This document shows, one piece after another, positions 7,133 to 48,130 of a stretch of DNA of 64,000 bases. A program made the translations under genes and the position numbers. The DNA lies in the NCBI GenBank assembly GCA_902728285.1, contig CACVBU010000349.1:328347-392346 (forward strand), read 5' to 3'. Each line of letters starts with the position of its first letter. Within the stretch, counting starts at the first letter, position 1. The stretch comes from Clytia hemisphaerica. Taxonomy: Eukaryota > Cnidaria > Hydrozoa > Leptothecata > Clytiidae. A model generated the notes under the pieces. That model ran no database searches and was not told the DNA's origin. It was given only the letters and a program-made list of their open reading frames with translations.

Positions 7133-7134
7133 TA

Positions 7135-7336
7135 CAATCCTGGCAAAAAGTAAATGGAATTTTACATATTCTAGGGTTTTTTCTTGTCATTTCCCTCCTC
7201 TCCCCCTCCCTACAATGTTGAGTGTCATTTTGCAGTCTGTACTGTGAAATTCAACATTGTAAAAGGGGGGGGAAAGGGGGGAAAGCTTCAAATTTTAACC
7301 AGGAAAAGAAAATTCCATTACTTTTTGCCAGTATTG
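7135..7336. repeat. Terminal block 1 (left end of array)
   Basis: The left end CAATCCTGGCAAAAAGTAAA and the right end AGTAC/AATG-type ACTTTTTGCCAGTATTG are imperfect inverted repeats of about 28 bp. Inside are a C-rich tract, an 11-bp stem TACAATGTTGA (7211-7221) / TCAACATTGTA (7251-7261), then a G-rich tract, so the block is palindromic along most of its length. TA precedes it at 7133-7134, the target dinucleotide of Tc1/mariner transposases. Confidence 0.9.
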
Positions 7337-7531
7337 TCTGGAGGAGTCAGGTGGTCTGGACTTTGAAATTTTTTTTGAAGAATTTTTTTTGATGTCCCCT
7401 CGAGGGACAATACTTTGTGTCTTCTTTTGTTCTGATGGGTTCCTACTACAAGAGTATATTAATCTAAAAGCTATAAAAACTACTAAGGTAAACAACAACA
7501 AATAAACAAGGTCGTAAACTATTATATACAA
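7295..7531 (-). CDS. Possible small membrane protein, unit 1
   Basis: A 78-codon frame with a hydrophobic segment at residues 8-28 and then a Lys/Arg/Ser-rich tail, as in a small single-pass membrane protein. Its start lies in the body and its end inside the terminal block, so it would be cut if the element were liberated at the block's right end. No homology is recognised. It could be a chance frame; presence in three units reflects sequence identity, not selection. Confidence 0.2.
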   Translation of the reverse strand: MYIIVYDLVYLLLFTLVVFIAFRLIYSCSRNPSEQKKTQSIVPRGDIKKNSSKKISKSRPPDSSRQYWQKVMEFSFPG

Positions 7532-7908
7532 GTGGTAAACAATGGGGTTGCGATGACTCTCCGCCGCACACTTTGCGAAAACAGGATAGCTATAAACTTT
7601 TACATCTTATTTTGTTGTTACCGGAGTAGAAAAAAAGGCAAAAAGTATTGAAATGTTCCAAGTTAAATTAGTGTTGGGGGTTACTTGAATGGAGTTCCTT
7701 TGTTGTTGTTCTTCAATCTGCTTGAAGAGACGGGTAATCAAGTTAGAGGATGAAATTTGTTAACGGTATTTTTAAAAGTTCGGCCGCTCACTTTTTCAAT
7801 TATAATTTACAAAAGGTGTCTGTGGTGTGCGGAGAGGTTTTCTTTCCCGGTTTTCCATGATGACTATCAAAATGACTATGATATATTAATGACTTGCCAA
7901 CGCTCTAC

Positions 7909-7930
7909 TATTATATATTAATATATAATA
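7909..7930. promoter_or_regulatory. AT-only perfect palindrome upstream of transposase, unit 1
   Basis: A 22-bp perfect palindrome of A and T (centre ATTAAT) lies about 80 bp before the transposase start. It could be a TATA-type promoter element or an easily melted site. Its role is unknown. Confidence 0.35.
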
Positions 7931-8009
7931 CTAAAATATCAACGTATTTTTATCTTTAAGGATAAAAAATATAACAATAGAAAAAATAAAAAAGTGAAAA
8001 CAGTTTAAA

Positions 8010-9083
8010 ATGAAAGTACCACTTCAAGTATCTATGGTGTTGCGATATTTACATCAGGTGAAAGGCGAAACGTTGAAACAATTACAAGAGGCGTATCCGC
8101 AATACAAACGTACAACTATTAATCGGCACATGAAAAAGACACTTAATGACACTGGGAGTGAGCCCAAAAAACGGACGGGAAGACCACCTAAAGTGACTGA
8201 CCGAGACCGCAGAAAAATATTTGCTGCAATGAGAAAACTAAAAGAGGAGTACGGTACTTTTAATGCAACACACATTCGCCGTGAAGCAGGGGTTTATCAC
8301 CTTGCCCCAAGAACTGTGCGATTTGTTTTGAATGCGGCAGGCTACAAGTATAAACAGTGTAGGAAGAAAGGCATCCTATTGAAGGGAGACCTAAAGAAAA
8401 GAATGAAATTTGCTAAACGGTGCAAAAAACTACCCACAAACTTTTGGAAGGAAGGAATTGGATTTTACTTGGACGGTGTATCCTTCGTACACAAAACTAA
8501 CCCTTGTGATTATGCCAAAACTTGCCGGACAAGGACATACATGAAGAGAGGCGAAGAATTAGACCTGCACAACACCGCCAAGGGCAAAAAGGAAGGAGTT
8601 GGTTCCCGCACTGCCAAATTTTTCTGCGCTATTGCATACGGAAAAGGATTCATGGAATGCCACCATTTTACAGGAAAAGTAAATGGTGAGTTCTGCCAAG
8701 GCTACATTAAAGAACGGTTCCCTGAAATGTTTCAATCGTCAGCAAACCCACGAGGAAAATTGTTTTTGCAAGATGGTGACCCCAGTCAAAATTCAGCAGC
8801 AGCACAGTTGGCCATGGATGCTGTAGGCTGTCGGCTTTTCAAAATTCCGCCCCGTAGTCCAGATCTTAATCCTATTGAAAACGCATTCCATAATATCCGG
8901 AGAAAGTTGAACGAAGACGCATTAGAAGGAAAAATTGAACGCGAGACCTTTGAGGAGTTTTGTCGAAGAGTTCGAAACACGATCTTATCATATAGCCCAG
9001 AAATCATTGACCGCACGATAGACTCAATGCCGAAAAGAATTGATTTGGTCATCAAGAATAATGGGATAAGAACCAAGTACTGA
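8010..9083 (+). CDS. Tc1/mariner (IS630)-like DD34E transposase, unit 1
   Basis: A 357-residue DDE transposase that would bind the inverted ends of the 202-bp block and cut and join them at TA. Residues 1-50 look like an N-terminal helix-turn-helix, followed by an AT-hook-like GRPPK at 57-61 and a second helix-turn-helix around 85-110. Catalytic residues: D155 (YLDGVSF), D255 (LFLQDGDPSQ) and E290 (SPDLNPIEN). The 34 residues between the last two give the DD34E spacing of Tc1-like enzymes. The usual His after DxDP is replaced: the motif reads DPSQNS. The length is normal for the family and no break is seen. It is convergent with rep and separated from it by the 100-bp palindrome. The first Met is used; no in-frame upstream Met is nearby. 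Confidence 0.9.
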   Translation: MKVPLQVSMVLRYLHQVKGETLKQLQEAYPQYKRTTINRHMKKTLNDTGSEPKKRTGRPPKVTDRDRRKIFAAMRKLKEEYGTFNATHIRREAGVYHLAPRTVRFVLNAAGYKYKQCRKKGILLKGDLKKRMKFAKRCKKLPTNFWKEGIGFYLDGVSFVHKTNPCDYAKTCRTRTYMKRGEELDLHNTAKGKKEGVGSRTAKFFCAIAYGKGFMECHHFTGKVNGEFCQGYIKERFPEMFQSSANPRGKLFLQDGDPSQNSAAAQLAMDAVGCRLFKIPPRSPDLNPIENAFHNIRRKLNEDALEGKIERETFEEFCRRVRNTILSYSPEIIDRTIDSMPKRIDLVIKNNGIRTKY

Positions 9084-9212
9084 TAATGGTATGAAAATCT
9101 ATATATAGAAAACATATCTACTTTGGTACAGAATTGAACTCTTTTTTAATTTTTCTTTCCTTTACTTAAGATTTTCAACCAGTTAAACCGAGATATCACC
9201 AATATAACTGGG

Positions 9213-9312
9213 TTTCCAACGGTGTCCGGACCGGACACCGTCAATTATTAAAAATAAATTTTAATTTATTTCTTTTATAATTGACGGTGTCCGGTCCGGA
9301 CACCGTTGGAAA
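9213..9312. repeat. 100-bp nested palindrome between convergent genes, unit 1
   Basis: Two perfect 36-nt inverted arms (9213-9248 and 9277-9312) start and end TTTCCAACGG../..CCGTTGGAAA. Each arm contains its own hairpin, ACGGTGTCCGG-A-CCGGACACCGT. The 28-nt AT-rich loop is also partly palindromic. It can form one long hairpin or a cross of two short ones. It is the most G/C-rich part of the intergenic region, between transposase and rep stop codons. Candidate origin or bidirectional terminator. Confidence 0.9.
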
Positions 9313-9379
9313 TATGCCCATTTCCCATGAAAATTTATTTAAAAGATTTCAATTCTGTAAACAAACTATATTATATACT

Positions 9380-10771
9380 CTAGGACATTATAAATCTGGC
9401 AAAACACTTTCCGCAGGGCTCTATTTTTCGTGTAACTTTTAGCGGTCTGCGAAAGTCAAAATAAACCCAGCGGTTGTCCATCATTTTAGTGTTATCTTTG
9501 TCGATCCTGTGACCCTCCATCTTAACCAATTTATCATCTGACGTTGCAAAGATAGGGGTTCTTGCTTCCCATACAATGTCCTCAGGGTGAGTGTTTTTGG
9601 GGGCTGGTAGATGTATGGGCCATCCTTCCAGAAGGTTGAGGAAATCTGACCACGCAATGAGTTTTTCGCACCAGCGGAGGTCGTTCAAAAGGACAACTTC
9701 AGCTTTTTCTGCACCAACCCAAGCAAAAGTCCCCGTAGCAGGTGACGAAAAGGTTTCAAAAACTGTTAGTAGCGGCTTCAATAGAAAGGTTTTCCCACAA
9801 TTGGAAAGCCCAGTTAGCATAACATTGTTCCCTTTGTCCCGCCCAAACTCAATAGCCTGCAGAATTGCCGCTTTGAATTTGGCAATGTCTACTTCATTTC
9901 TTTCCAAAACTTCTACCGCACAAAGCCTGTATTGATCATTACAAACACACTCCATGTCCCTGGCCTCTCTCAAGATCTGCATCCTACTCATTTTCTTTCT
10001 ATCTGCCTTTCGCTTTGAATCTTTGACGCCCCAAGCTGTCTTTATCAATTCTTTCTTCTTCGTAGCGCTCTGTCTCAGCACAAAACTCAAAAGATCACTT
10101 TTACCTTCATCATACTGAAGCCTGGCTTCCAATAATAGATCGTCCTCAGTTTTAATATCACGCCTAGTTATAATTTCATAAACCGATATCTCATCTAACT
10201 TGACCTTTTCTCTCCTACCTCTCTTTGCTGGTGAATCTTCTCCGCTATCATCATTTTCCCCCTCACTCATTTGCCTGCTGTTATTCATTCTGCTCTCTGT
10301 CGCCTTAGCTGTACGGGGCCTATTTAAAAGATATGGGTGATTGTCTGAAACTACATAGTCTTCGTCTTCCTTTTTAATGTACTCAAAGGCGTCCTCATAG
10401 CACGTGTGAAACTCCCTGAAATGACACTTTAACCCCGGGTAGGCCTCCTCCACTCCATTTTTCTTTTCCACCCAACGAGTGCGCTGCATCAATTTTAACG
10501 CCAGGTGATAGTGGGGGTTACCGTCTTCATGCAATTCCTTACAACAAGCCCAATGATTGACAGCTTTCGGTCCGCCAAATGCGTTTACCCAAATTTCAGC
10601 GAATGACTCCCGCGTTGGCACAATCGATAAGTCCGCTTGGCTGTAGGTGATCAAATATGTCTGTCTTCGGGATTCCTTACCACTATTACTGTTACGCTTC
10701 TTTCCTTTACCATTTTTAGTTGCCATATTATTCAATTTACTTTTTAAAACTGTAAATATAACAAAAGACAT
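9380..10771 (-). CDS. rep: CRESS-type replication initiator (HUH endonuclease + SF3 helicase), unit 1
   Basis: A 463-codon rolling-circle initiator expected to nick the origin, hold the 5' end on tyrosine and unwind the circle. HUH motifs in order: motif I YLITYSQ (39-45), motif II NPHYHLALKL with H87 and H89, motif III EYIKK with Y131 and K134. A charged Ser/Asp-rich linker with a basic patch KRGRR (183-187) follows. SF3 helicase: Walker A GLSNCGKT (321-328), Walker B VVLLNDLRW (359-367) and motif C FATSD (408-412). All motifs are intact and in the order seen in CRESS-DNA virus Reps. The Met at residue 16, before a Lys-rich stretch, is an alternative start. No capsid gene accompanies it. Confidence 0.9.
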   Translation of the reverse strand: MSFVIFTVLKSKLNNMATKNGKGKKRNSNSGKESRRQTYLITYSQADLSIVPTRESFAEIWVNAFGGPKAVNHWACCKELHEDGNPHYHLALKLMQRTRWVEKKNGVEEAYPGLKCHFREFHTCYEDAFEYIKKEDEDYVVSDNHPYLLNRPRTAKATESRMNNSRQMSEGENDDSGEDSPAKRGRREKVKLDEISVYEIITRRDIKTEDDLLLEARLQYDEGKSDLLSFVLRQSATKKKELIKTAWGVKDSKRKADRKKMSRMQILREARDMECVCNDQYRLCAVEVLERNEVDIAKFKAAILQAIEFGRDKGNNVMLTGLSNCGKTFLLKPLLTVFETFSSPATGTFAWVGAEKAEVVLLNDLRWCEKLIAWSDFLNLLEGWPIHLPAPKNTHPEDIVWEARTPIFATSDDKLVKMEGHRIDKDNTKMMDNRWVYFDFRRPLKVTRKIEPCGKCFARFIMS

Positions 10772-10850
10772 TATTTAGAACATATATTCATGTACTTTAG
10801 GATATTTTTAGGCTTCATACAAATTTTATTTTATGTTCTGTCAGTATTTT

Positions 10851-10920
10851 TATGCCCATAGTGAGTGGGATCGGGGTGGGCTTTCTCTCAGTAGTAAAAA
10901 AGGTCACCACTATAGGCATA
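10851..10920. promoter_or_regulatory. Hairpin upstream of rep, unit 1
   Basis: 13-bp arms TATGCCCATAGTG (10851-10863) and CACTATAGGCATA (10908-10920), with one G:T-type mismatch and a 44-nt loop containing a G-rich GGGATCGGGGTGGG. It lies 80 bp upstream of the rep start, where many circular Rep elements have their origin or rep promoter. The canonical NANTATTAC loop is absent. The rest of 10772-11324 shows no convincing gene. Confidence 0.45.
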
Positions 10921-11324
10921 ATAATTCTGATCAGATTTACACAGCTTATAGTCAATGTATATACATAGTTTCTTTATTTACTAGTTTATTTTTGTTTTGA
11001 TAGTATTTTAGTCACACTTTTGTCTTTATTTTACTCTTATAAGCACCACTTTTTAAAAAATTCCAAAGTCGTGGACTTCCTCCTTCAAAAACTGGCTCCC
11101 TGGATCCGTTTTCCACGTTTTTCATGCGAAAAATTCGAATTTTTCCCGCCGCACCGAAACGAGGCTGTCACTTTCGATTTCGCGACTTCAAAATCAAAAC
11201 AAACAAAATGGTAGCCAAAGTAACGTACGAAAGCATGCAGGAGCACTCAGAGAGCTCTTTGAGGTGTTTTTTGGAAAATTTTTGGTCCCCTAATGCAAAA
11301 TTTCTTTCAATTTGAAAATAAAGA

Positions 11325-11526
11325 CAATCCTGGCAAAAAGTAAATGGAATTTTACATATTCTAGGGTTTTTTCTTGTCATTTCCCTCCCCTCCCCCTCCC
11401 TACAATGTTGAGTGTCATTTTGCAGTCTGTACTGTGAAATTCAACATTGTAAAAGGGGGGGGAAAGGGGGGAAAGCTTCAAATTTTAACCAGGAAAAGAA
11501 AATTCCATTACTTTTTGCCAGTATTG
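11325..11526. repeat. Terminal block 2 (internal)
   Basis: Same block as at the array's left end but for one T-to-C change in the C-rich tract. It is preceded by GA and followed by TC, not TA. This shows it is a junction within the repeating unit rather than an independent MITE insertion. Confidence 0.9.
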
Positions 11527-11721
11527 TCTGGAGGAGTCAGGTGGTCTGGACTTTGAAATTTTTTTTGAAGAATTTTTTTTGATGTCCCCTCGAGGGACAA
11601 TACTTTGTGTCTTCTTTTGTTCTGATGGGTTCCTACTACAAGAGTATATTAATCTAAAAGCTATAAAAACTACTAAGGTAAACAACAACAAATAAACAAG
11701 GTCGTAAACTATTATATACAA
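11485..11721 (-). CDS. Possible small membrane protein, unit 2
   Basis: Same 78-codon frame as in unit 1. It reads from the body into terminal block 2. Confidence 0.2.
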   Translation of the reverse strand: MYIIVYDLVYLLLFTLVVFIAFRLIYSCSRNPSEQKKTQSIVPRGDIKKNSSKKISKSRPPDSSRQYWQKVMEFSFPG

Positions 11722-12098
11722 GTGGTAAACAATGGGGTTGCGATGACTCTCCGCCGCACACTTTGCGAAAACAGGATAGCTATAAACTTTTACATCTTAT
11801 TTTGTTGTTACCGGAGTAGAAAAAAAGGCAAAAAGTATTGAAATGTTCCAAGTTAAATTAGTGTTGGGGGTTACTTGAATGGAGTTCCTTTGTTGTTGTT
11901 CTTCAATCTGCTTGAAGAGACGGGTAATCAAGTTAGAGGATGAAATTTGTTAACGGTATTTTTAAAAGTTCGGCCGCTCACTTTTTCAATTATAATTTAC
12001 AAAAGGTGTCTGTGGTGTGCGGAGAGGTTTTCTTTCCCGGTTTTCCATGATGACTATCAAAATGACTATGATATATTAATGACTTGCCAACGCTCTAC

Positions 12099-12120
12099 TA
12101 TTATATATTAATATATAATA
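12099..12120. promoter_or_regulatory. AT-only palindrome, unit 2
   Basis: Second copy of the 22-bp AT palindrome before the transposase gene. Confidence 0.35.
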
Positions 12121-12199
12121 CTAAAATATCAACGTATTTTTATCTTTAAGGATAAAAAATATAACAATAGAAAAAATAAAAAAGTGAAAACAGTTTAAA

Positions 12200-13273
12200 A
12201 TGAAAGTACCACTTCAAGTATCTATGGTGTTGCGATATTTACATCAGGTGAAAGGCGAAACGTTGAAACAATTACAAGAGGCGTATCCGCAATACAAACG
12301 TACAACTATTAATCGGCACATGAAAAAGACACTTAATGACACTGGGAGTGAGCCCAAAAAACGGACGGGAAGACCACCTAAAGTGACTGACCGAGACCGC
12401 AGAAAAATATTTGCTGCAATGAGAAAACTAAAAGAGGAGTACGGTACTTTTAATGCAACACACATTCGCCGTGAAGCAGGGGTTTATCACCTTGCCCCAA
12501 GAACTGTGCGATTTGTTTTGAATGCGGCAGGCTACAAGTATAAACAGTGTAGGAAGAAAGGCATCCTATTGAAGGGAGACCTAAAGAAAAGAATGAAATT
12601 TGCTAAACGGTGCAAAAAACTACCCACAAACTTTTGGAAGGAAGGAATTGGATTTTACTTGGACGGTGTATCCTTCGTACACAAAACTAACCCTTGTGAT
12701 TATGCCAAAACTTGCCGGACAAGGACATACATGAAGAGAGGCGAAGAATTAGACCTGCACAACACCGCCAAGGGCAAAAAGGAAGGAGTTGGTTCCCGCA
12801 CTGCCAAATTTTTCTGCGCTATTGCATACGGAAAAGGATTCATGGAATGCCACCATTTTACAGGAAAAGTAAATGGTGAGTTCTGCCAAGGCTACATTAA
12901 AGAACGGTTCCCTGAAATGTTTCAATCGTCAGCAAACCCACGAGGAAAATTGTTTTTGCAAGATGGTGACCCCAGTCAAAATTCAGCAGCAGCACAGTTG
13001 GCCATGGATGCTGTAGGCTGTCGGCTTTTCAAAATTCCGCCCCGTAGTCCAGATCTTAATCCTATTGAAAACGCATTCCATAATATCCGGAGAAAGTTGA
13101 ACGAAGACGCATTAGAAGGAAAAATTGAACGCGAGACCTTTGAGGAGTTTTGTCGAAGAGTTCGAAACACGATCTTATCATATAGCCCAGAAATCATTGA
13201 CCGCACGATAGACTCAATGCCGAAAAGAATTGATTTGGTCATCAAGAATAATGGGATAAGAACCAAGTACTGA
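12200..13273 (+). CDS. Tc1/mariner-like DD34E transposase, unit 2
   Basis: Encodes the same 357-residue protein as the unit 1 copy, with D155, D255 and E290 intact and the same DPSQNS variant. Exactly 4,190 bp separate the two starts. No disabling change is seen, so the copies are young or homogenised. Confidence 0.9.
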   Translation: MKVPLQVSMVLRYLHQVKGETLKQLQEAYPQYKRTTINRHMKKTLNDTGSEPKKRTGRPPKVTDRDRRKIFAAMRKLKEEYGTFNATHIRREAGVYHLAPRTVRFVLNAAGYKYKQCRKKGILLKGDLKKRMKFAKRCKKLPTNFWKEGIGFYLDGVSFVHKTNPCDYAKTCRTRTYMKRGEELDLHNTAKGKKEGVGSRTAKFFCAIAYGKGFMECHHFTGKVNGEFCQGYIKERFPEMFQSSANPRGKLFLQDGDPSQNSAAAQLAMDAVGCRLFKIPPRSPDLNPIENAFHNIRRKLNEDALEGKIERETFEEFCRRVRNTILSYSPEIIDRTIDSMPKRIDLVIKNNGIRTKY

Positions 13274-13402
13274 TAATGGTATGAAAATCTATATATAGAA
13301 AACATATCTACTTTGGTACAGAATTGAACTCTTTTTTAATTTTTCTTTCCTTTACTTAAGATTTTCAACCAGTTAAACCGAGATATCACCAATATAACTG
13401 GG

Positions 13403-13502
13403 TTTCCAACGGTGTCCGGACCGGACACCGTCAATTATTAAAAATAAATTTTAATTTATTTCTTTTATAATTGACGGTGTCCGGTCCGGACACCGTTGGA
13501 AA
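13403..13502. repeat. 100-bp nested palindrome, unit 2
   Basis: Same 36-nt arms and 28-nt loop as in unit 1. No base differences were noticed. Confidence 0.9.
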
Positions 13503-13569
13503 TATGCCCATTTCCCATGAAAATTTATTTAAAAGATTTCAATTCTGTAAACAAACTATATTATATACT

Positions 13570-14961
13570 CTAGGACATTATAAATCTGGCAAAACACTTT
13601 CCGCAGGGCTCTATTTTTCGTGTAACTTTTAGCGGTCTGCGAAAGTCAAAATAAACCCAGCGGTTGTCCATCATTTTAGTGTTATCTTTGTCGATCCTGT
13701 GACCCTCCATCTTAACCAATTTATCATCTGACGTTGCAAAGATAGGGGTTCTTGCTTCCCATACAATGTCCTCAGGGTGAGTGTTTTTGGGGGCTGGTAG
13801 ATGTATGGGCCATCCTTCCAGAAGGTTGAGGAAATCTGACCACGCAATGAGTTTTTCGCACCAGCGGAGGTCGTTCAAAAGGACAACTTCAGCTTTTTCT
13901 GCACCAACCCAAGCAAAAGTCCCCGTAGCAGGTGACGAAAAGGTTTCAAAAACTGTTAGTAGCGGCTTCAATAGAAAGGTTTTCCCACAATTGGAAAGCC
14001 CAGTTAGCATAACATTGTTCCCTTTGTCCCGCCCAAACTCAATAGCCTGCAGAATTGCCGCTTTGAATTTGGCAATGTCTACTTCATTTCTTTCCAAAAC
14101 TTCTACCGCACAAAGCCTGTATTGATCATTACAAACACACTCCATGTCCCTGGCCTCTCTCAAGATCTGCATCCTACTCATTTTCTTTCTATCTGCCTTT
14201 CGCTTTGAATCTTTGACGCCCCAAGCTGTCTTTATCAATTCTTTCTTCTTCGTAGCGCTCTGTCTCAGCACAAAACTCAAAAGATCACTTTTACCTTCAT
14301 CATACTGAAGCCTGGCTTCCAATAATAGATCGTCCTCAGTTTTAATATCACGCCTAGTTATAATTTCATAAACCGATATCTCATCTAACTTGACCTTTTC
14401 TCTCCTACCTCTCTTTGCTGGTGAATCTTCTCCGCTATCATCATTTTCCCCCTCACTCATTTGCCTGCTGTTATTCATTCTGCTCTCTGTCGCCTTAGCT
14501 GTACGGGGCCTATTTAAAAGATATGGGTGATTGTCTGAAACTACATAGTCTTCGTCTTCCTTTTTAATGTACTCAAAGGCGTCCTCATAGCACGTGTGAA
14601 ACTCCCTGAAATGACACTTTAACCCCGGGTAGGCCTCCTCCACTCCATTTTTCTTTTCCACCCAACGAGTGCGCTGCATCAATTTTAACGCCAGGTGATA
14701 GTGGGGGTTACCGTCTTCATGCAATTCCTTACAACAAGCCCAATGATTGACAGCTTTCGGTCCGCCAAATGCGTTTACCCAAATTTCAGCGAATGACTCC
14801 CGCGTTGGCACAATCGATAAGTCCGCTTGGCTGTAGGTGATCAAATATGTCTGTCTTCGGGATTCCTTACCACTATTACTGTTACGCTTCTTTCCTTTAC
14901 CATTTTTAGTTGCCATATTATTCAATTTACTTTTTAAAACTGTAAATATAACAAAAGACAT
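13570..14961 (-). CDS. rep: CRESS-type Rep, unit 2
   Basis: Encodes the same 463-residue Rep as unit 1, with the HUH motifs (H87, H89, Y131) and SF3 Walker A/B/C intact. Convergent with the unit 2 transposase. Confidence 0.9.
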   Translation of the reverse strand: MSFVIFTVLKSKLNNMATKNGKGKKRNSNSGKESRRQTYLITYSQADLSIVPTRESFAEIWVNAFGGPKAVNHWACCKELHEDGNPHYHLALKLMQRTRWVEKKNGVEEAYPGLKCHFREFHTCYEDAFEYIKKEDEDYVVSDNHPYLLNRPRTAKATESRMNNSRQMSEGENDDSGEDSPAKRGRREKVKLDEISVYEIITRRDIKTEDDLLLEARLQYDEGKSDLLSFVLRQSATKKKELIKTAWGVKDSKRKADRKKMSRMQILREARDMECVCNDQYRLCAVEVLERNEVDIAKFKAAILQAIEFGRDKGNNVMLTGLSNCGKTFLLKPLLTVFETFSSPATGTFAWVGAEKAEVVLLNDLRWCEKLIAWSDFLNLLEGWPIHLPAPKNTHPEDIVWEARTPIFATSDDKLVKMEGHRIDKDNTKMMDNRWVYFDFRRPLKVTRKIEPCGKCFARFIMS

Positions 14962-15040
14962 TATTTAGAACATATATTCATGTACTTTAGGATATTTTTA
15001 GGCTTCATACAAATTTTATTTTATGTTCTGTCAGTATTTT

Positions 15041-15110
15041 TATGCCCATAGTGAGTGGGATCGGGGTGGGCTTTCTCTCAGTAGTAAAAAAGGTCACCAC
15101 TATAGGCATA
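15041..15110. promoter_or_regulatory. Hairpin upstream of rep, unit 2
   Basis: Second copy of the TATGCCCATAGTG / CACTATAGGCATA hairpin. Confidence 0.45.
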
Positions 15111-15514
15111 ATAATTCTGATCAGATTTACACAGCTTATAGTCAATGTATATACATAGTTTCTTTATTTACTAGTTTATTTTTGTTTTGATAGTATTTTA
15201 GTCACACTTTTGTCTTTATTTTACTCTTATAAGCACCACTTTTTAAAAAATTCCAAAGTCGTGGACTTCCTCCTTCAAAAACTGGCTCCCTGGATCCGTT
15301 TTCCACGTTTTTCATGCGAAAAATTCGAATTTTTCCCGCCGCACCGAAACGAGGCTGTCACTTTCGATTTCGCGACTTCAAAATCAAAACAAACAAAATG
15401 GTAGCCAAAGTAACGTACGAAAGCATGCAGGAGCACTCAGAGAGCTCTTTGAGGTGTTTTTTGGAAAATTTTTGGTCCCCTAATGCAAAATTTCTTTCAA
15501 TTTGAAAATAAAGA

Positions 15515-15716
15515 CAATCCTGGCAAAAAGTAAATGGAATTTTACATATTCTAGGGTTTTTTCTTGTCATTTCCCTCCCCTCCCCCTCCCTACAATGTTG
15601 AGTGTCATTTTGCAGTCTGTACTGTGAAATTCAACATTGTAAAAGGGGGGGGAAAGGGGGGAAAGCTTCAAATTTTAACCAGGAAAAGAAAATTCCATTA
15701 CTTTTTGCCAGTATTG
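15515..15716. repeat. Terminal block 3 (internal)
   Basis: Matches block 2 and, like it, is flanked by GA and TC instead of TA. Confidence 0.9.
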
Positions 15717-15911
15717 TCTGGAGGAGTCAGGTGGTCTGGACTTTGAAATTTTTTTTGAAGAATTTTTTTTGATGTCCCCTCGAGGGACAATACTTTGTGT
15801 CTTCTTTTGTTCTGATGGGTTCCTACTACAAGAGTATATTAATCTAAAAGCTATAAAAACTACTAAGGTAAACAACAACAAATAAACAAGGTCGTAAACT
15901 ATTATATACAA
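15675..15911 (-). CDS. Possible small membrane protein, unit 3
   Basis: Third copy of the 78-codon frame. Block 4 has no body after it, so the frame is not complete there. Confidence 0.2.
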   Translation of the reverse strand: MYIIVYDLVYLLLFTLVVFIAFRLIYSCSRNPSEQKKTQSIVPRGDIKKNSSKKISKSRPPDSSRQYWQKVMEFSFPG

Positions 15912-16288
15912 GTGGTAAACAATGGGGTTGCGATGACTCTCCGCCGCACACTTTGCGAAAACAGGATAGCTATAAACTTTTACATCTTATTTTGTTGTTA
16001 CCGGAGTAGAAAAAAAGGCAAAAAGTATTGAAATGTTCCAAGTTAAATTAGTGTTGGGGGTTACTTGAATGGAGTTCCTTTGTTGTTGTTCTTCAATCTG
16101 CTTGAAGAGACGGGTAATCAAGTTAGAGGATGAAATTTGTTAACGGTATTTTTAAAAGTTCGGCCGCTCACTTTTTCAATTATAATTTACAAAAGGTGTC
16201 TGTGGTGTGCGGAGAGGTTTTCTTTCCCGGTTTTCCATGATGACTATCAAAATGACTATGATATATTAATGACTTGCCAACGCTCTAC

Positions 16289-16310
16289 TATTATATATTA
16301 ATATATAATA
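16289..16310. promoter_or_regulatory. AT-only palindrome, unit 3
   Basis: Third copy of the 22-bp AT palindrome before the transposase gene. Confidence 0.35.
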
Positions 16311-16389
16311 CTAAAATATCAACGTATTTTTATCTTTAAGGATAAAAAATATAACAATAGAAAAAATAAAAAAGTGAAAACAGTTTAAA

Positions 16390-17463
16390 ATGAAAGTACC
16401 ACTTCAAGTATCTATGGTGTTGCGATATTTACATCAGGTGAAAGGCGAAACGTTGAAACAATTACAAGAGGCGTATCCGCAATACAAACGTACAACTATT
16501 AATCGGCACATGAAAAAGACACTTAATGACACTGGGAGTGAGCCCAAAAAACGGACGGGAAGACCACCTAAAGTGACTGACCGAGACCGCAGAAAAATAT
16601 TTGCTGCAATGAGAAAACTAAAAGAGGAGTACGGTACTTTTAATGCAACACACATTCGCCGTGAAGCAGGGGTTTATCACCTTGCCCCAAGAACTGTGCG
16701 ATTTGTTTTGAATGCGGCAGGCTACAAGTATAAACAGTGTAGGAAGAAAGGCATCCTATTGAAGGGAGACCTAAAGAAAAGAATGAAATTTGCTAAACGG
16801 TGCAAAAAACTACCCACAAACTTTTGGAAGGAAGGAATTGGATTTTACTTGGACGGTGTATCCTTCGTACACAAAACTAACCCTTGTGATTATGCCAAAA
16901 CTTGCCGGACAAGGACATACATGAAGAGAGGCGAAGAATTAGACCTGCACAACACCGCCAAGGGCAAAAAGGAAGGAGTTGGTTCCCGCACTGCCAAATT
17001 TTTCTGCGCTATTGCATACGGAAAAGGATTCATGGAATGCCACCATTTTACAGGAAAAGTAAATGGTGAGTTCTGCCAAGGCTACATTAAAGAACGGTTC
17101 CCTGAAATGTTTCAATCGTCAGCAAACCCACGAGGAAAATTGTTTTTGCAAGATGGTGACCCCAGTCAAAATTCAGCAGCAGCACAGTTGGCCATGGATG
17201 CTGTAGGCTGTCGGCTTTTCAAAATTCCGCCCCGTAGTCCAGATCTTAATCCTATTGAAAACGCATTCCATAATATCCGGAGAAAGTTGAACGAAGACGC
17301 ATTAGAAGGAAAAATTGAACGCGAGACCTTTGAGGAGTTTTGTCGAAGAGTTCGAAACACGATCTTATCATATAGCCCAGAAATCATTGACCGCACGATA
17401 GACTCAATGCCGAAAAGAATTGATTTGGTCATCAAGAATAATGGGATAAGAACCAAGTACTGA
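16390..17463 (+). CDS. Tc1/mariner-like DD34E transposase, unit 3
   Basis: Third intact copy, same protein as units 1 and 2, 4,190 bp downstream of the unit 2 start. Confidence 0.9.
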   Translation: MKVPLQVSMVLRYLHQVKGETLKQLQEAYPQYKRTTINRHMKKTLNDTGSEPKKRTGRPPKVTDRDRRKIFAAMRKLKEEYGTFNATHIRREAGVYHLAPRTVRFVLNAAGYKYKQCRKKGILLKGDLKKRMKFAKRCKKLPTNFWKEGIGFYLDGVSFVHKTNPCDYAKTCRTRTYMKRGEELDLHNTAKGKKEGVGSRTAKFFCAIAYGKGFMECHHFTGKVNGEFCQGYIKERFPEMFQSSANPRGKLFLQDGDPSQNSAAAQLAMDAVGCRLFKIPPRSPDLNPIENAFHNIRRKLNEDALEGKIERETFEEFCRRVRNTILSYSPEIIDRTIDSMPKRIDLVIKNNGIRTKY

Positions 17464-17592
17464 TAATGGTATGAAAATCTATATATAGAAAACATATCTA
17501 CTTTGGTACAGAATTGAACTCTTTTTTAATTTTTCTTTCCTTTACTTAAGATTTTCAACCAGTTAAACCGAGATATCACCAATATAACTGGG

Positions 17593-17692
17593 TTTCCAAC
17601 GGTGTCCGGACCGGACACCGTCAATTATTAAAAATAAATTTTAATTTATTTCTTTTATAATTGACGGTGTCCGGTCCGGACACCGTTGGAAA
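17593..17692. repeat. 100-bp nested palindrome, unit 3
   Basis: Third copy between the convergent genes. Arms and loop as in unit 1. Confidence 0.9.
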
Positions 17693-17759
17693 TATGCCCA
17701 TTTCCCATGAAAATTTATTTAAAAGATTTCAATTCTGTAAACAAACTATATTATATACT

Positions 17760-19151
17760 CTAGGACATTATAAATCTGGCAAAACACTTTCCGCAGGGCT
17801 CTATTTTTCGTGTAACTTTTAGCGGTCTGCGAAAGTCAAAATAAACCCAGCGGTTGTCCATCATTTTAGTGTTATCTTTGTCGATCCTGTGACCCTCCAT
17901 CTTAACCAATTTATCATCTGACGTTGCAAAGATAGGGGTTCTTGCTTCCCATACAATGTCCTCAGGGTGAGTGTTTTTGGGGGCTGGTAGATGTATGGGC
18001 CATCCTTCCAGAAGGTTGAGGAAATCTGACCACGCAATGAGTTTTTCGCACCAGCGGAGGTCGTTCAAAAGGACAACTTCAGCTTTTTCTGCACCAACCC
18101 AAGCAAAAGTCCCCGTAGCAGGTGACGAAAAGGTTTCAAAAACTGTTAGTAGCGGCTTCAATAGAAAGGTTTTCCCACAATTGGAAAGCCCAGTTAGCAT
18201 AACATTGTTCCCTTTGTCCCGCCCAAACTCAATAGCCTGCAGAATTGCCGCTTTGAATTTGGCAATGTCTACTTCATTTCTTTCCAAAACTTCTACCGCA
18301 CAAAGCCTGTATTGATCATTACAAACACACTCCATGTCCCTGGCCTCTCTCAAGATCTGCATCCTACTCATTTTCTTTCTATCTGCCTTTCGCTTTGAAT
18401 CTTTGACGCCCCAAGCTGTCTTTATCAATTCTTTCTTCTTCGTAGCGCTCTGTCTCAGCACAAAACTCAAAAGATCACTTTTACCTTCATCATACTGAAG
18501 CCTGGCTTCCAATAATAGATCGTCCTCAGTTTTAATATCACGCCTAGTTATAATTTCATAAACCGATATCTCATCTAACTTGACCTTTTCTCTCCTACCT
18601 CTCTTTGCTGGTGAATCTTCTCCGCTATCATCATTTTCCCCCTCACTCATTTGCCTGCTGTTATTCATTCTGCTCTCTGTCGCCTTAGCTGTACGGGGCC
18701 TATTTAAAAGATATGGGTGATTGTCTGAAACTACATAGTCTTCGTCTTCCTTTTTAATGTACTCAAAGGCGTCCTCATAGCACGTGTGAAACTCCCTGAA
18801 ATGACACTTTAACCCCGGGTAGGCCTCCTCCACTCCATTTTTCTTTTCCACCCAACGAGTGCGCTGCATCAATTTTAACGCCAGGTGATAGTGGGGGTTA
18901 CCGTCTTCATGCAATTCCTTACAACAAGCCCAATGATTGACAGCTTTCGGTCCGCCAAATGCGTTTACCCAAATTTCAGCGAATGACTCCCGCGTTGGCA
19001 CAATCGATAAGTCCGCTTGGCTGTAGGTGATCAAATATGTCTGTCTTCGGGATTCCTTACCACTATTACTGTTACGCTTCTTTCCTTTACCATTTTTAGT
19101 TGCCATATTATTCAATTTACTTTTTAAAACTGTAAATATAACAAAAGACAT
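17760..19151 (-). CDS. rep: CRESS-type Rep, unit 3
   Basis: Third intact Rep copy with all HUH and SF3 motifs. It lies nearest the right end of the array. Confidence 0.9.
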   Translation of the reverse strand: MSFVIFTVLKSKLNNMATKNGKGKKRNSNSGKESRRQTYLITYSQADLSIVPTRESFAEIWVNAFGGPKAVNHWACCKELHEDGNPHYHLALKLMQRTRWVEKKNGVEEAYPGLKCHFREFHTCYEDAFEYIKKEDEDYVVSDNHPYLLNRPRTAKATESRMNNSRQMSEGENDDSGEDSPAKRGRREKVKLDEISVYEIITRRDIKTEDDLLLEARLQYDEGKSDLLSFVLRQSATKKKELIKTAWGVKDSKRKADRKKMSRMQILREARDMECVCNDQYRLCAVEVLERNEVDIAKFKAAILQAIEFGRDKGNNVMLTGLSNCGKTFLLKPLLTVFETFSSPATGTFAWVGAEKAEVVLLNDLRWCEKLIAWSDFLNLLEGWPIHLPAPKNTHPEDIVWEARTPIFATSDDKLVKMEGHRIDKDNTKMMDNRWVYFDFRRPLKVTRKIEPCGKCFARFIMS

Positions 19152-19230
19152 TATTTAGAACATATATTCATGTACTTTAGGATATTTTTAGGCTTCATAC
19201 AAATTTTATTTTATGTTCTGTCAGTATTTT

Positions 19231-19300
19231 TATGCCCATAGTGAGTGGGATCGGGGTGGGCTTTCTCTCAGTAGTAAAAAAGGTCACCACTATAGGCATA
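19231..19300. promoter_or_regulatory. Hairpin upstream of rep, unit 3
   Basis: Third copy of the 13-bp-stem hairpin upstream of rep. Confidence 0.45.
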
Positions 19301-19704
19301 ATAATTCTGATCAGATTTACACAGCTTATAGTCAATGTATATACATAGTTTCTTTATTTACTAGTTTATTTTTGTTTTGATAGTATTTTAGTCACACTTT
19401 TGTCTTTATTTTACTCTTATAAGCACCACTTTTTAAAAAATTCCAAAGTCGTGGACTTCCTCCTTCAAAAACTGGCTCCCTGGATCCGTTTTCCACGTTT
19501 TTCATGCGAAAAATTCGAATTTTTCCCGCCGCACCGAAACGAGGCTGTCACTTTCGATTTCGCGACTTCAAAATCAAAACAAACAAAATGGTAGCCAAAG
19601 TAACGTACGAAAGCATGCAGGAGCACTCAGAGAGCTCTTTGAGGTGTTTTTTGGAAAATTTTTGGTCCCCTAATGCAAAATTTCTTTCAATTTGAAAATA
19701 AAGA

Positions 19705-19905
19705 CAATCCTGGCAAAAAGTAAATGGAATTTTACATATTCTAGGGTTTTTTCTTGTCATTTCCCTCCCCTCCCCCTCCCTACAATGTTGAGTGTCATTT
19801 TGCAGTCTGTACTGTGAAATTCAACATTGTAAAAGGGGGGGAAAGGGGGGAAAGCTTCAAATTTTAACCAGGAAAAGAAAATTCCATTACTTTTTGCCAG
19901 TATTG
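19705..19905. repeat. Terminal block 4 (right end of array)
   Basis: One G shorter in its G-run than the other blocks. It ends with GCCAGTATTG directly followed by TA (19906-19907), matching the TA at the left end of the array. Its presence makes the array n+1 blocks for n bodies. Confidence 0.9.
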
Positions 19906-19970
19906 TAGATATTTTTCAATTTATTGTACTCTTATTAGATCAATATAATTCTATGATTATTTTGTAAAAA

Positions 19971-20669: not shown

Positions 20670-21018
20670 TAATCGTAGAAATTTTAGCGAGACTAATTTT
20701 AGTGTTTTAGCGAGTTTTCCCTATTTTCGCTAAAATAAATCTCGCCAAAACACGCTGAATCATCAGATCGCTAAAATTTATCCACGCGAAATTTCTGGTT
20801 ATATTGCCTTGATACATTTTTATCAATATGAAGGGTTTCTGTGCAAAGAAATGCTATAAAACGAATTCAATCAATGATGTAATACGAGTACTCGCTAAAA
20901 TTTATCCACGCGAAGTTTTCTGAAATGATGATTCGCTAAAATAAATCCAAAAAAAATCAAGATTTTCCTGGCTCGCTAATATACGCTAAAATTAGTCTCG
21001 CTAAAATTTCTATGATTA
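20670..21018. mobile_element. TA-flanked MITE with TTTTAGCGAG ends, copy 1
   Basis: 349 bp with long inverted ends TAATCGTAGAAATTTTAGCG../..CGCTAAAATTTCTATGATTA and several internal CGCTAAAAT repeats in both senses. If the outer TA is the duplicated target, it is a Tc1/mariner-type non-autonomous element. A second copy lies at 49041-49415. Confidence 0.8.
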
Positions 21019-21134
21019 AAGTAGTGTTTTCTCCGCAGAAGGGCCTTTAGCGAACTTTCTACTTGATTTTCGACCTTTGAATAAGTATACGCATGTGATA
21101 GATTCTCATGGCGTTATACTCTGTAACTATCGTC

Positions 21135-21517: not shown

Positions 21518-21990
21518 CAGCTGGAAATACAGTGCCGTTCCCATTAAATATTGTAATCATTCTAGGCAATTTTGGGACAGTAATTTTTGCATTTTTATTT
21601 CCAGCTGGAAATAGAGAGCCGTTCCCATAAAATATCTATATTGCTCTAACATTTTTCCTTTTTTATCTCCAGCTGGAAATAGAGAGCCGTTCCCATAAAA
21701 TATCTATATTGCTCTAACATTTTTCCTTTTTTATCTCCAGCTGGAAATAGAGAGCCGTTCCCATAAAATATCTATATTGCTCTGACGTTTGCTACCTTTA
21801 TTTTCCTTTTTGATCTCCAGCTGGAAATAAAGAGCCGTTCCTATACATTTGTATATCTCCTCCTGGCAAATGTGAACGGCTATTTTAAGGAAAAGGTCAA
21901 AACTTTTTTTTTGAGAGCTGTTCCCGTGCAGTTTGTTCCATTTTCCTGGCATATTTTTCTTTTCCAGCTGGAAATTTGGAGCCGTTCCGG
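21518..21990. repeat. 68-bp minisatellite, CAGCTGGAAATNNAGAGCCGTTCC
   Basis: CCAGCTGGAAATAGAGAGCC recurs at 21601, 21669 and 21737 (period 68), with diverged copies near 21520, 21817 and 21964. The unit contains the palindrome CCAGCTGG. It abuts the 5' truncation of the following LINE. Confidence 0.8.
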
Positions 21991-22085
21991 ACAACCCAAT
22001 TATGTTCATTTTATAGAAATTTTCTCCTGGCTGGCAAAAAGGAACGGCTTTTTCGTGTTTTGCCTCAGTGGCTGCTTCTGTCTGT

Positions 22086-23760
22086 AATCAAACAAGTAAG
22101 TGACCTGATCTCTCCAGTTTTGAGTCATATCATCAACCATTCGATTACCACTTCAAATTTTCCAAGTAAGTTAAAACTTTCAAAAGTAATTCCTCTTTTC
22201 AAAAACGGTGCTAAGAATGACATCAAAAACTACAGACCAATATCCATATTGCCAATTTTTGACAAGATTTTCGAAAAGATTGTTCACAAACGTTTAATGA
22301 AATTTTTCACTGATTTCGAAATATTAGCTCCAAACCAATATGGTTTTCAAAAATCTAAATCCACCTCTCATGCAGTACTCGACTTAACATCGAAAATCAG
22401 TTCTGCACTAAAAAACAATAAATCTTGCTGTGCAATTTTCTTAGACCTGGCAAAAGCCTTCGACACTGTCAACCACTCCATTTTACTAGGAAAGCTTTCT
22501 AAGGTTGGTATCAGAGGTCCTATGCTAGGATGGCTTGAGAGCTATCTCAGTCATCGACAACAGTGTGTCAGTGTACATGGTAAGTTATCTAGTCCTGTCC
22601 ATATGAAATATGGAGTACCACAAGGCTCTGTCCTAGGCCCACTTCTGTTCCTTATTTACATCAATGACATTCCTGATGCTTCTAAAATCTTCTCGTTTAC
22701 CCTTTTTGCTGACGATACGTGTCTTCTAGCAGAACATGAGAGTTTAAAAGACTTAGAAACTCTTGTAAACCACGAAATCAAAGAAATAGAAACTTGGTTG
22801 AAAAATAATAGGTTATCTTTGAATGTGAAAAAATCTTGCTATCTTCTTTTTACAGGGAAAAAGAATACAGAGGACTTCAATATTATCATGGGTAATGATG
22901 CTCTTACCAGGCTTAACGCAGCAAAATACTTAGGAGTAATGATTGATGACAGGCTAAAGTGGAAAGAACAGGTAAACAGTGTCCTATCGAAAATCAAACA
23001 AGGGTCAGGTATAATGAGGAAGGTAAGTTATCTAGTCCCCAACTATGTCAGTCGTTCGCTATACTATAGTTTCATTCAATCTCATGTTCAATATTCCATT
23101 ACATCCTGGGGATCTCCTTTAACTAAGGGATTATCAAGGATAAATGACGTAACTAATAAAATAATCAACAAAATCAATAAATACAAACACCATGATGAAG
23201 AAATTTTTGCACCGCTAACTCTAAACCAATTATATAAATTACAATGTTGTAAATTAATATATAGTTACATTAAACTTAATAATATTCCATCTTCACTTAA
23301 ATCTTTGTTTAATGAACCTGATCATGAACATAAAACCAGACTCGTAAATAACGGAGGTATGGAGGTGATACACTTCGACGTTGCTGCCCATCCAATTATG
23401 TTTTACGGTCCTCATTTCTGGAATGCTTACGGTGTCCAAATAAAAGATCTGAATCCATTCAGTAGCTTTCTATCATCTTTGAAACAAAAAATTATTTCAT
23501 AGTTATCTTATAACCATTTCTTATTATTTAGTAGTAATCATATGTATATATTCTCCATTTTCGCGCCAAACCCACGCCATTCTTGTAGCTAAACATATAG
23601 CTATTTTTAAATGTACATAACGTTCCTTTATTTACCACAGTACTTTAACTGCCTGATGGCTTTGTAAACCTATTAAAGGTTGTTTCATCAGGTTGATTTT
23701 GTAAATTTTTCTAGTTAAAGTTTAGAGAAAAGAAATCTCATTCATTCAAAAAAAATTAAA
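22086..23760 (+). mobile_element. 5'-truncated CR1/L2-like LINE (reverse transcriptase fragment)
   Basis: Coding sequence runs open from about 22086 to the stop at 23502, about 470 residues of the reverse transcriptase half of ORF2. Motifs seen in order: LPIFDKIFEKIVHKRL, FLDLAKAFDTVNH, GVPQGSVLGPLLFLIYIND, LFADDTCLL with the catalytic Asp pair, and the C-terminal MFYGPHFWN phrase shared with the LINE at 35811-40509. The endonuclease and ORF1 are missing, as expected from incomplete reverse transcription. The 3' UTR runs to an A-rich end near 23760. No stop interrupts the fragment, so it is fairly young. Clade assignment is by resemblance only. Confidence 0.85.
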
Positions 23761-27572: not shown

Positions 27573-30500
27573 ATGATTATTGATGAAATATTCGAAAAGT
27601 CAAAAGTAGTATTGGATGCCCTGCCAGGCAGATACAAAAAAAAAACAATTAATCGCTTGAAGAAAACGTTACCAGTAAGTCTTCTATTTCACCATTTTTA
27701 CCTTAATTGAATTATTTTTGGTTGGAGTTTGTTGTGTTCAGGGGGACAGGCAGTTAGCACATGACACTAATGGGGCCCCCCCAGCGGACCCTAAATTCAC
27801 GCATTCACGCAAAGTTTTTTCGCAATTCACGCATTCACGCAAGTTTTTCTCGAAATTCACGCAAACCCGATTTTTTGGGAAATCGGGGAAATTTTCGGAA
27901 AAATCGGGGAAATTGTCAAACATTTCTACACATTTGGGTGAAAAGCCAGTTTGCAGAGTCTGAATTATCAGAGAAGTCGTTTGTTTTTGTTAAGTATTCG
28001 AGAGTGGGGCAGACGTTAGACATTGCAATCTAATATAAATGGTAGAATGCCCTCGTATACGAGGCGCCCCAGCGGAACCAAAATGGCAAGGCTGCTACAC
28101 TCGAGATTTTTCGACCGGATCTGGTCATGCACTTGAGAAAAACTTAACTCAGTAGTGATTTTTTCCTGTACACCTGACTATAAGCACATTAGCTTAATAA
28201 AGTGCTACGTAAGTTTTTAACTTTAATCACATGCCATCACGCAAAATATTTTATTCTTCTAACATGTCACTGTCGTTTAGAAAAGGTGATTTTTGTACAA
28301 AAAATATCTTAATCATTATCAAAAATAGGTCAAACAAACTCCAGGGTGACACCATAATGCTTAGCTAAGGGGTAAGGAGGCGCAACCATGGTTTGCGCAG
28401 AGAGGAAATTTTTTGCATTTCTGTCACCTCGCGGTTGGCTAAAAATGCTATCTTTAACACCATTGAAAAAGAATGTAGTCTAAATTCATTAAGAGGCGAG
28501 GTACGATCGCTTGATAGAGTGCAAAATGAGGTAAAAGGATGAACATTTGTTCATCAGGGGTCGCGTCTTGATTTCCTAACGTGGAGGGGCCGAAAACATA
28601 GCGACTAAGGGAGGCGCAACCATGGTTTGCGCCGACAGGGGAAAGTTTCTATTTTCACACTCTGATGTGCTTAAATACGACTCCATTTCAGACTGATTTT
28701 GCCAAGAAATGAGGTTCTCAAAAGTCTGCATCGTGGGTATTAAATATTTCTTTGAATTAAAGATTTGTGGTGAGGGCTGACTAAACTATACATGTTTTTT
28801 TTTTTATAAGCAAGTGTCTGCCCCTACATCAGGCTCATCACATTATGCTTAGCATTCTATTGTTCTCAAATAATAGAGCCATTGTTTAGTGACCAAAAAC
28901 TGAGCCTGCATATGCTTATAAACGTTATGCTTATAAAAGAAAAAATATGTACTTGCACTCGACTTTTGGCGGGTGCTGCACTCAAAATCTCGAACAAACG
29001 TGCCACGTTCTGCAAACTGGGTGAAAAGGGAAATTCCCCGAGTTCACGTAAAAAACAGGGCAGATTCACGCATTCACGCAATAGAAAATGGATTTTCACG
29101 TTCACGCAAGTTTTTTTAATTCACGCATTCACGCAATTTTTTTTCAATCTTCACGCATTCACGCAACCAAAAAAGCCCATTCACGCATTCACGCAAACCG
29201 CTGGGGGGGCCCCACTAATGACATTTAGTACTGCAGTGGTCCACTTGTCAAATTTGGATAATGCAGTTATTCACCAAGTGTACTAAGTGAAAAGCAGGTG
29301 GTATTTAGATAAAAACAAAATTTGTGTACTAAGAAAATGTGCGGACCGCCAAATATTTTGAAACGGACTTTAAAAATTATAAATATGATTTTTATCTATC
29401 AATTTATAGAAACAGATAGTTGAATTGCTGAAAGAAAAAAGCGAAGCTGAAGTTGTTGAAATCAAATCCTTGGAAATCATTGAAAAGTATTCCTTCAAAA
29501 ATAATAGAAAGGTTTGTGTTTTTTAGCAAAGAATTAACTTCTTTACTGGATTTTTAATTTAAATAAGATTAATTATCTTGTATGACATAAATTAGAGATA
29601 CAATTTCAAAACAGGTTGGGGTATTACCTTTTAGTACTCATTTATGTCTTGGATTTTTGTACTGACCCCCTAAAAAATCCTCATAAATTATATTATATAA
29701 TTTATGTGAACATATAAAGAGAATAAAAAGAATAAAGAACATAAAAAGAGAAACACCAAAACATCAAATTTAACGGCTTTGTGAATGGCTTTCAAGTTTA
29801 TGAACACACATTAAATACATCCCATATGAAATAATTTATGGGGGCTTTTTGTTTACCATTTTCCACTTTTTAAGGACTGTAGACTAATAAATTGGTTTGT
29901 AATACTCTTACGTTGTGTGTATACGGTGAATTTTTGTGTACTTTTATGTAACTTTATTTATTTTTTTGTTTTGTTTTCAGGAAAACCTTGACAAACAGGA
30001 TAATTCAGTTGCAGCAAGATGGGGTTCATTAAGGCAAAAAGGGGTCGCTTATGATTCTCGTCATGCTGTTAAAGTGGATAAGGAAAAGGAAGAACTCAGA
30101 ATAGATAATGCGAAACTACTTGTCAAAAACCACTACCTTACAACTCGAAGCTTTGAGTTAGGTAGATTAAAGCTGGAAAAATCTCTGAAACAACGAACCA
30201 TCCGTATTAGTGATTCGGCATTGTTCTCAGACCATATAGGCTATTGTGATGAAGTCTTGCTTGATACTGATATTGACTTCGTTGAAGTTGAAAATTTGAA
30301 AGATAAGTTGTTTGTTTATAGCGATGGTGAGTTTGAATACTTTAAATTGTCAATAAAAGATGGGGAGATGATCAATTTAAAGAACTTGAAAAAAAAGGTT
30401 TCCAAAGAACAGTCGCTCGTTATTTTGAGCCATGAACTGAAATTGCTGCGAACAATTGACAAACATAAAAATATTATAAGCCCTTTGGGGATAACATGCA

Positions 30501-36542: not shown

Positions 36543-36619
36543 GACGTTCTTTTCAGACTTTTTTTCTATTGCTATTATTTTCTTTGTTATTCTGTTATTA
36601 ATACTTTTTCGCATGCTTT

Positions 36620-48127: not shown

Positions 48128-48130
48128 CTG

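Follow-up and report, generated by a model that had tools for sequence, protein, structure and literature searches.

An apparent composite-like DNA transposon of Clytia hemisphaerica that carries a Tc1/mariner-type transposase and a Rep of viral-type modules

Composite-like DNA transposons are known from KolobokP, described by Kojima and Bao in 2022 (PMC9587614). As set out in the accessible portion of that paper, a KolobokP interior lies between long terminal direct repeats (LTDRs), each with inverted ends of its own; solo repeats also occur, and multimers follow the pattern (LTDR-INT)n-LTDR, in which INT is the interior and target duplications are usually found at the outer ends. The authors call such repeats "unlike any other DNA transposons" (PMC9587614). 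Another related system is Teratorn, a 180 kb piggyBac-herpesvirus fusion; according to the accessible part of a review, integration of one virus unit lying between two transposon copies may be made possible by rolling-circle concatemers (PMC10175614). The locus analyzed here lies in a 64,000-nucleotide stretch of the Clytia hemisphaerica genome (GenBank assembly GCA_902728285.1, contig CACVBU010000349.1, positions 328,347 to 392,346 of the forward strand), hereafter the window. At window positions 7135-19905, a tandem array carries in each unit a Tc1/mariner-type transposase and a Rep, which contains an HUH endonuclease and an SF3 helicase. Cut-and-paste transposons do not encode machinery to replicate themselves, and a dedicated integrase is usually missing from rolling-circle replicons; an element with both would supply each missing half. 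A first-pass annotation had proposed that this array represents a single chimeric element.

The array consists of three tandem 4,190-bp units and one 201-bp piece, totaling 12,771 bp (3 x 4,190 + 201). In an offset comparison at 4,190 bp, identity is unbroken from 7134 to 15651 with a sole mismatch at 7199; the fixed register spans 7134-19841 and extends to 19905 if a 1-bp indel in a G-run is permitted. The base differences among the three units amount to one substitution (unit position 65), and the last 201-bp piece has one G fewer in its G-run. The order of parts is (hairpin-interior)x3-hairpin. Four direct repeats on the + strand, each a hairpin (7135..7336, 11325..11526 and 15515..15716, each of 202 bp, and 19705..19905, of 201 bp), enclose three interiors of 3,988 bp (7337..11324, 11527..15514 and 15717..19704).

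The left edge of the array reads TA-CAAT at 7133-7138 and the right edge reads ATTG-TA at 19902-19907. On inspection of the sequence, TA adjoins only these two outermost edges (7133-7134 and 19906-19907), where it is the presumed target-site duplication of the whole array; the inner hairpins are flanked by GA/TC. In the DNA beyond the array TA has a frequency of 0.074, which puts the chance of finding it at both outer edges at about 0.0055. The limits of tandem homology are the hairpin edges, within one base common to both flank kinds. Because only the outermost edges abut TA, the trimer behaves as one insertion. The simplest reading is that the array represents either a single insertion event or one insertion expanded later in place, with transposase-type ends bounding it. 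The first-pass coordinates therefore prove exact, with a TA-flanked edge located on both sides, and the open reading frames (ORFs) and offset comparison confirm three 4,190-bp units with identical Rep and transposase proteins. The proposal that inverted ends mark each 4,190-bp unit does not hold; such ends are found instead at the limits of the entire array and of every 202-bp hairpin.

The hairpins are the architectural core of the array. The first begins CAATCCTGG.. and ends ..CCAGTATTG, and adopts an imperfect end-to-end fold at -54.6 kcal/mol, as compared to -20.5 (standard deviation 2.8) for shuffled sequence (z -12.0); 0/200 shuffles are as stable. The second gives a similar z of -11.4. 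Each 202-bp hairpin carries its own 28-bp inverted ends, 82% complementary without gaps. Each hairpin alone would therefore constitute a miniature element with outward ends, leaving the 3,988-bp interior outside them. No further copies of the hairpin ends were found within the unit.

The two genes of each unit are convergent. The transposase is encoded on the + strand (8010..9083, 12200..13273 and 16390..17463) as an intact protein of 357 amino acids, identical in all three copies. The catalytic residues D155, D255 and E290 are invariant in 24/24 aligned transposases, with 34 residues between the last two. The window protein matches DDE_3 above the family cut-off (E=1e-9) and HTH_Tnp_Tc3_2 below its cut-off; among the aligned members, DDE_3 is present in 23/24 and HTH_Tnp_Tc3_2 in 24/24 (E<=0.01). 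Its fold model matches Mos1 and Sleeping Beauty. As judged from sequence, the protein and the array that encodes it combine the characters of the Tc1/mariner superfamily: a DD34E triad; a DDE_3-type domain; a Tc3-type helix-turn-helix; inverted ends; and TA flanks, these at one locus. Consistent with the first-pass prediction, the invariant triad and DDE_3 match identify an intact DD34E enzyme.

The Rep is encoded on the - strand (9380..10771, 13570..14961 and 17760..19151) and is likewise intact, at 463 amino acids, with identical protein in each copy. A relative with 89% identity, P0001, begins at the residue aligned to M16. H87, H89, Y131 and K134 (HUH and YxxK) and the Walker residues are invariant in an alignment of 30 sequences, which bears out the earlier description of an intact Rep with H87/H89/Y131 and an SF3 helicase. 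That annotation had also called the Rep CRESS-like, and here the two domains diverge. The endonuclease part contains the HxH and YxxK motifs and matches geminivirus and redondovirus Reps, in keeping with this half of the description; the geminivirus matches that a single-sequence search gives are of low significance (E >=0.04). The helicase part is instead best matched by adeno-associated virus (AAV) Rep, papillomavirus E1 and parvovirus NS1. The fold model is matched by AAV Rep68, papillomavirus E1 and geminivirus Rep, with AAV-2 Rep68 the best Foldseek match (E 2.3e-13), and the 50 listed viral models that match it include many parvovirus NS1 proteins and also Reps of circular viruses. TM-scores of the whole-Rep query are low (0.21-0.43 over 50 listed rows), and the structural reading rests on rows covering one domain; rows with Z differing by <1 count as tied. 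Comparison of the Rep alignment profile to PDB sequences gave nothing at E<=0.1, the window Rep has no Parvo_NS1 match in Pfam, and no PIF1 match occurs among 25 of the 26 families listed for 30 Rep members. The apparent combination of a geminivirus-like endonuclease and a parvo/papillomavirus-like helicase in one Rep bears on the kinship of small DNA viruses.

The helicase part also contains two cysteine pairs, 453/456, invariant in the 30 sequences, and 275/277, conserved at >=90%. These might bind metal.

Relatives at E<=0.001 number 224 proteins for Rep and 933 for the transposase, of which 120 each were listed. Pairing was judged from these listed matches, on 119 Rep and 120 transposase contigs, with equal length as a proxy for the same contig. 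Equal lengths occur for 11 contigs in all, and the eight of >2.5 kb were counted (3945, 4156, 4250, 4335, 4365, 7842, 15355 and 16119). In a shifted-list control, the mean is 0.97 and the maximum is 5 in 2,000 draws. The partner trees of the two proteins both give the sister pairs window/c4365, c3945/c16119 and c15355/c7842, and a clade with c4156. The c4250 pair (P0053/P0214) was left out of the permutation test because its transposase lies on a long branch and its length match is possibly due to chance. Without it, 4/5 splits agree between the Rep and transposase trees, a level reached by 112/40,320 relabelings (p=0.0028); with it, the shared splits are 4/6. By this proxy, the gene pair apparently recurs in diverged relatives; co-occurrence in other genomes was a check that the first-pass annotation had proposed.

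The genomic setting of the relatives is also informative. Among the matches listed, the largest Rep cluster has 286 members and that of an Acropora millepora protein has 116, with many singletons, and some contigs of the listed Rep relatives reach megabases. At least some relatives are therefore multicopy and chromosomal. The contig sizes of relatives, taken without a control, show a main peak at ~1.25-2.5 kb and smaller peaks at 3.5-4.5 kb for Rep and 3.75-4.75 kb for the transposase, or about one unit. The transposase alignment has two distant matches in IMG/VR, at 27%.

These data bear on whether the locus contains one element or two. Animals commonly harbor Tc1 elements as well as endogenous Reps, and by chance either could have landed inside the other, a Tc1/mariner element within an endogenous repeat that bears a Rep or such a repeat within a Tc1/mariner element. 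Inverted ends around one gene only would be a sign of such nesting, for which the first-pass annotation had named a target duplication around one gene. Around Rep alone, nothing rises above shuffled sequence. Around the transposase alone, the best inverted match is A/T-rich (16/18, near 7977 and 9158); of 100 shuffles, 10 do at least as well at length 14, 3 at length 18 and 4 at length 24. The value of only 3/100 lends nesting some support, but the match is of low complexity, and the hairpin ends in the same control reach 17/18 with 0/100 shuffles. Without convincing inverted ends around either gene, there is no good sign of a nested insertion. The unit also lacks further copies of the hairpin ends, the pairing recurs and the trees largely agree. 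Nesting is thus a remote prospect, and the evidence supports Rep and transposase as parts of one element inside the outer TA-flanked ends, as the sequence places them and as the first-pass annotation had it.

A separate question is whether this element is viral. The first unit contains no other ATG-started ORF of >=110 amino acids, and the whole array contains no other ORF of >=120 amino acids with an ATG, GTG or TTG start, unspliced ORFs being considered in both cases. Within this scope, the earlier statement that there is no capsid gene holds. The Rep modules are nonetheless of viral kinds, and hairpin repeats and head-to-tail concatemers resemble AAV. The locus could accordingly be the integrated form of a capsid-dependent single-stranded DNA virus or satellite, with a Tc1/mariner transposase acquired for integration and a capsid supplied by a helper or a second segment. 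The missing capsid-sized unspliced ORF speaks against this, as do the failure of the search patterns used to turn up a Rep relative in IMG/VR contigs and the many-membered clusters or contigs of up to megabases on which some Rep relatives are found. We consider a viral or satellite origin improbable.

Taken in aggregate, the data suggest a composite-like mobile element in which the interior encodes the transposase and Rep, the 202-bp hairpin repeats each contain both ends, the Rep copies and the transposase inserts. We regard this proposal as evenly balanced between right and wrong. The proposed division of labor between the enzymes is deduced from their families. The proposed mechanism would involve: nicking of the element by Rep, perhaps at the hairpin foot; copying outside the chromosome by Rep, to yield circles or head-to-tail concatemers; and pairing by the transposase of any left end with any downstream right end, such that the stretch between them is inserted at TA. 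The resulting insertions would contain no interior (a solo hairpin of 201 bp), one, two or three interiors, the last as in the present array. Copying by Rep together with insertion by the transposase would make this a replicating transposon without a capsid. A role for Rep is favored because Rep is kept, with intact catalytic residues, beside the transposase in diverged relatives. Under the model, insertions across the genome should measure 201 + n x 4,190 bp, with TA on both sides.

A more far-reaching form of this proposal, to which we give somewhat less than even credence, is that the array represents an unnamed class of eukaryotic elements joining a rolling-circle-type replicon to a cut-and-paste DDE transposase. 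Here, the hybrid Rep would make head-to-tail concatemers, starting at a hairpin that serves both as origin and as transposon end, and n units plus one hairpin would be inserted at TA. In such a class, the Rep would be an evolutionary hybrid, its endonuclease of CRESS type and its helicase of parvo/papillomavirus type, and the element would be a capsid-less virus-like replicon with its own integrase, whose single hairpins scatter as miniature inverted-repeat transposable elements.

The main rival to concatemer insertion is expansion in place. A monomer (hairpin-interior-hairpin) inserted at TA could have grown by unequal crossing-over or break repair between its repeats; Rep nicking may stimulate such expansion, and concatemers are not needed. 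The direct hairpin repeats are suitable substrates, and the single inter-unit substitution fits a recent expansion. Growth of this type is one model proposed for KolobokP multimers in the accessible portion of that work, where outer target duplications are likewise kept (PMC9587614). It leaves unexplained why a catalytically intact Rep stays with the transposase in diverged relatives. On balance, in-place growth is a credible possibility that we nonetheless think doubtful. The near-identity of the units, with one difference among them, is also the usual condition for assembly errors. The gene pair could therefore be real and its threefold copy number an artifact of a one-unit insertion or of extrachromosomal circles. 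The substitution and the indel both fall in the outermost hairpins, a placement that a plain walk round a circle would not give, although this is not decisive; we judge such an artifact very unlikely.

Several observations weigh against a replicating element that inserts concatemers. The DNA of the element was read at one locus. The hairpins inside a concatemer are flanked by GA/TC and lack TA, and Tc1/mariner transposases usually excise from TA. Unequal crossing-over in place could also produce a trimer, without Rep, or the assembler may have miscounted the units. Recurrence rests on equal contig size as a proxy for the same contig. The Rep and transposase trees, which the first-pass annotation had suggested building, agree in most splits among the partners but conflict in one, and the identities of paired Rep and transposase proteins correlate weakly (r=0.36, 36 pairs). 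This conflicting split and weak correlation make partner exchange or unequal rates possible. In the c4365 relative, the transposase is 89% identical to that of the window and the Rep 65%. Finally, no Rep relatives were found in IMG/VR (searched with the single Rep and the Rep alignment), in GTDB genomes (searched with the alignment), in phages or in plasmids.

Within the proposed composite-like element, shorter features suggest sites at which its enzymes may act. GGCAAAAAGTA is present in both hairpin ends (7142 + and 7319 -) and, in a motif search, a third time at 7637..7647 on the + strand; it is absent from the other 51 kb of the window. The third copy is perhaps an inner transposase site. 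AGTATTGTC lies at the right hairpin foot (7330..7338, +) and again on the opposite strand (7406..7414, -), where it adjoins a small GTCCC/GGGAC palindrome, and is absent from the rest of the window. That Rep nicks or binds these sites is conjecture. Between the convergent stop codons of each unit is a further hairpin (9213..9312, 13403..13502 and 17593..17692, the same in each), with 40-nt arms that are 98% complementary and a fold z of -14.2. As its loop in unit 1 contains AATAAA on each strand (9253 + and 9265 -), the structure suggests a two-way transcription terminator.

Two other candidates were rejected. A second hairpin at 7390-7670 folds no better than shuffles (z -0.71). An origin of the NANTATTAC type, the CRESS stem-loop origin motif, is not supported; no exact match, the only form searched, occurs in the intergenic DNA of the unit, and the sole exact match per unit falls inside the Rep gene, for example at 10682.

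The remainder of the window contains additional repeats and ORFs. At 53445-59636 (-), a 1,045-amino acid ORF with a PIF1-like helicase (E 4e-12) is preceded by further ORFs, of which one weakly matches an OTU protease (E 0.0028), and the region looks like a Helitron/Helentron-type element. At 35811-40100 (+), successive ORFs with a coiled-coil-like match, a PHD finger, an Exo_endo_phos_2 endonuclease (just below cut-off) and a reverse transcriptase probably represent a non-LTR (long terminal repeat) retrotransposon, one of whose ORFs bears the PHD finger. Another ORF for a reverse transcriptase (RVT_1, E 2.8e-38), at 21976-23502 (+), comes soon after a 68-bp tandem repeat at 21583-21790, and an ORF at 26256-27068 (+) matches the Pfam 'rva_4 integrase core' family (E 4e-68). 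A dispersed ~360-bp repeat has two copies, 86% identical, at 20680-21034 and 49066-49431, the first 0.8 kb right of the array. The window further contains a protein-kinase ORF at 29936-30997 (+), for which a search with the kinase part gave one relative only (42% identity), and an ORF at 47052-48128 (-) that matches DUF6589 weakly (E 1.3e-4, below cut-off).

The array thus appears to be a composite-like DNA transposon for which each module and the ground plan have precedents, and the combination does not appear among the papers listed in the literature searches. The accessible part of a survey of HUH replicons by Kazlauskas et al. in 2019 mentions no Tc1/mariner partner (PMC6668415), and no description of a Rep plus Tc1/mariner element was found in the accessible portions of PMC6668415, PMC10175614, PMC9587614 and PMC12220107. 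More broadly, no description of the pairing was found among the papers listed, a scope that leaves aside subscription journals, Repbase and preprints and in which some search wordings would miss papers. This agrees with the first-pass statement that no named eukaryotic element class defined by both is known. The pairing is real, well bounded, apparently recurrent and, in that literature, undescribed.

The element shares features with several known groups. CRESS-DNA viruses (Geminiviridae and Redondoviridae) share with the Clytia Rep an HUH endonuclease with HxH and YxxK; the Clytia unit differs in having no capsid ORF (unspliced, ATG-started, >=110 amino acids) and no intergenic exact NANTATTAC. 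Parvoviruses, including AAV, have hairpin repeats as well and appear to resemble it in helicase fold, but the unit has no unspliced capsid (VP) ORF and its integration would proceed via a DDE transposase. Helitrons and Helentrons are likewise eukaryotic elements with an HUH Rep. They contain a Rep-Pif1 helicase and no DDE transposase, whereas the Clytia Rep helicase is SF3-type. With Tc1/mariner (IS630-Tc1-mariner) elements, the array shares DD34E, the HTH_Tnp_Tc3_2 and DDE_3 domains, TA flanks and inverted ends, and its end sequence presumably resembles nematode Tc1 ends; it differs in carrying Rep, in having both ends inside each 202-bp hairpin and in its tandem composite structure.

Two systems come closest in organization. 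In Teratorn, as described in the accessible part of the review, a cut-and-paste transposase is also joined to separate DNA replication machinery (PMC10175614). There piggyBac is joined to an entire herpesvirus; the 4.2-kb Clytia unit pairs a Tc1/mariner-type transposase with just one Rep. If the proposed mechanism is correct, the Clytia element would be a Teratorn in miniature, in which one Rep is all that stands for the replication machinery. KolobokP, in the accessible portion of its description, has the same ground plan, multimers and an interior encoding a DDE transposase and a second nuclease (PMC9587614). Its enzymes are a Kolobok transposase and a His-Me finger nuclease, its target duplications are 3-5 bp and its repeats are ~450 or 660 bp (PMC9587614), in contrast to the Tc1/mariner-type transposase, HUH-SF3 Rep, TA and 202-bp full-length hairpin of the Clytia array. 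The different transposase superfamily, second enzyme and target mean that the array is not a KolobokP. By analogy, it may move like one, and it would then represent a second route to the composite-like architecture of KolobokP.

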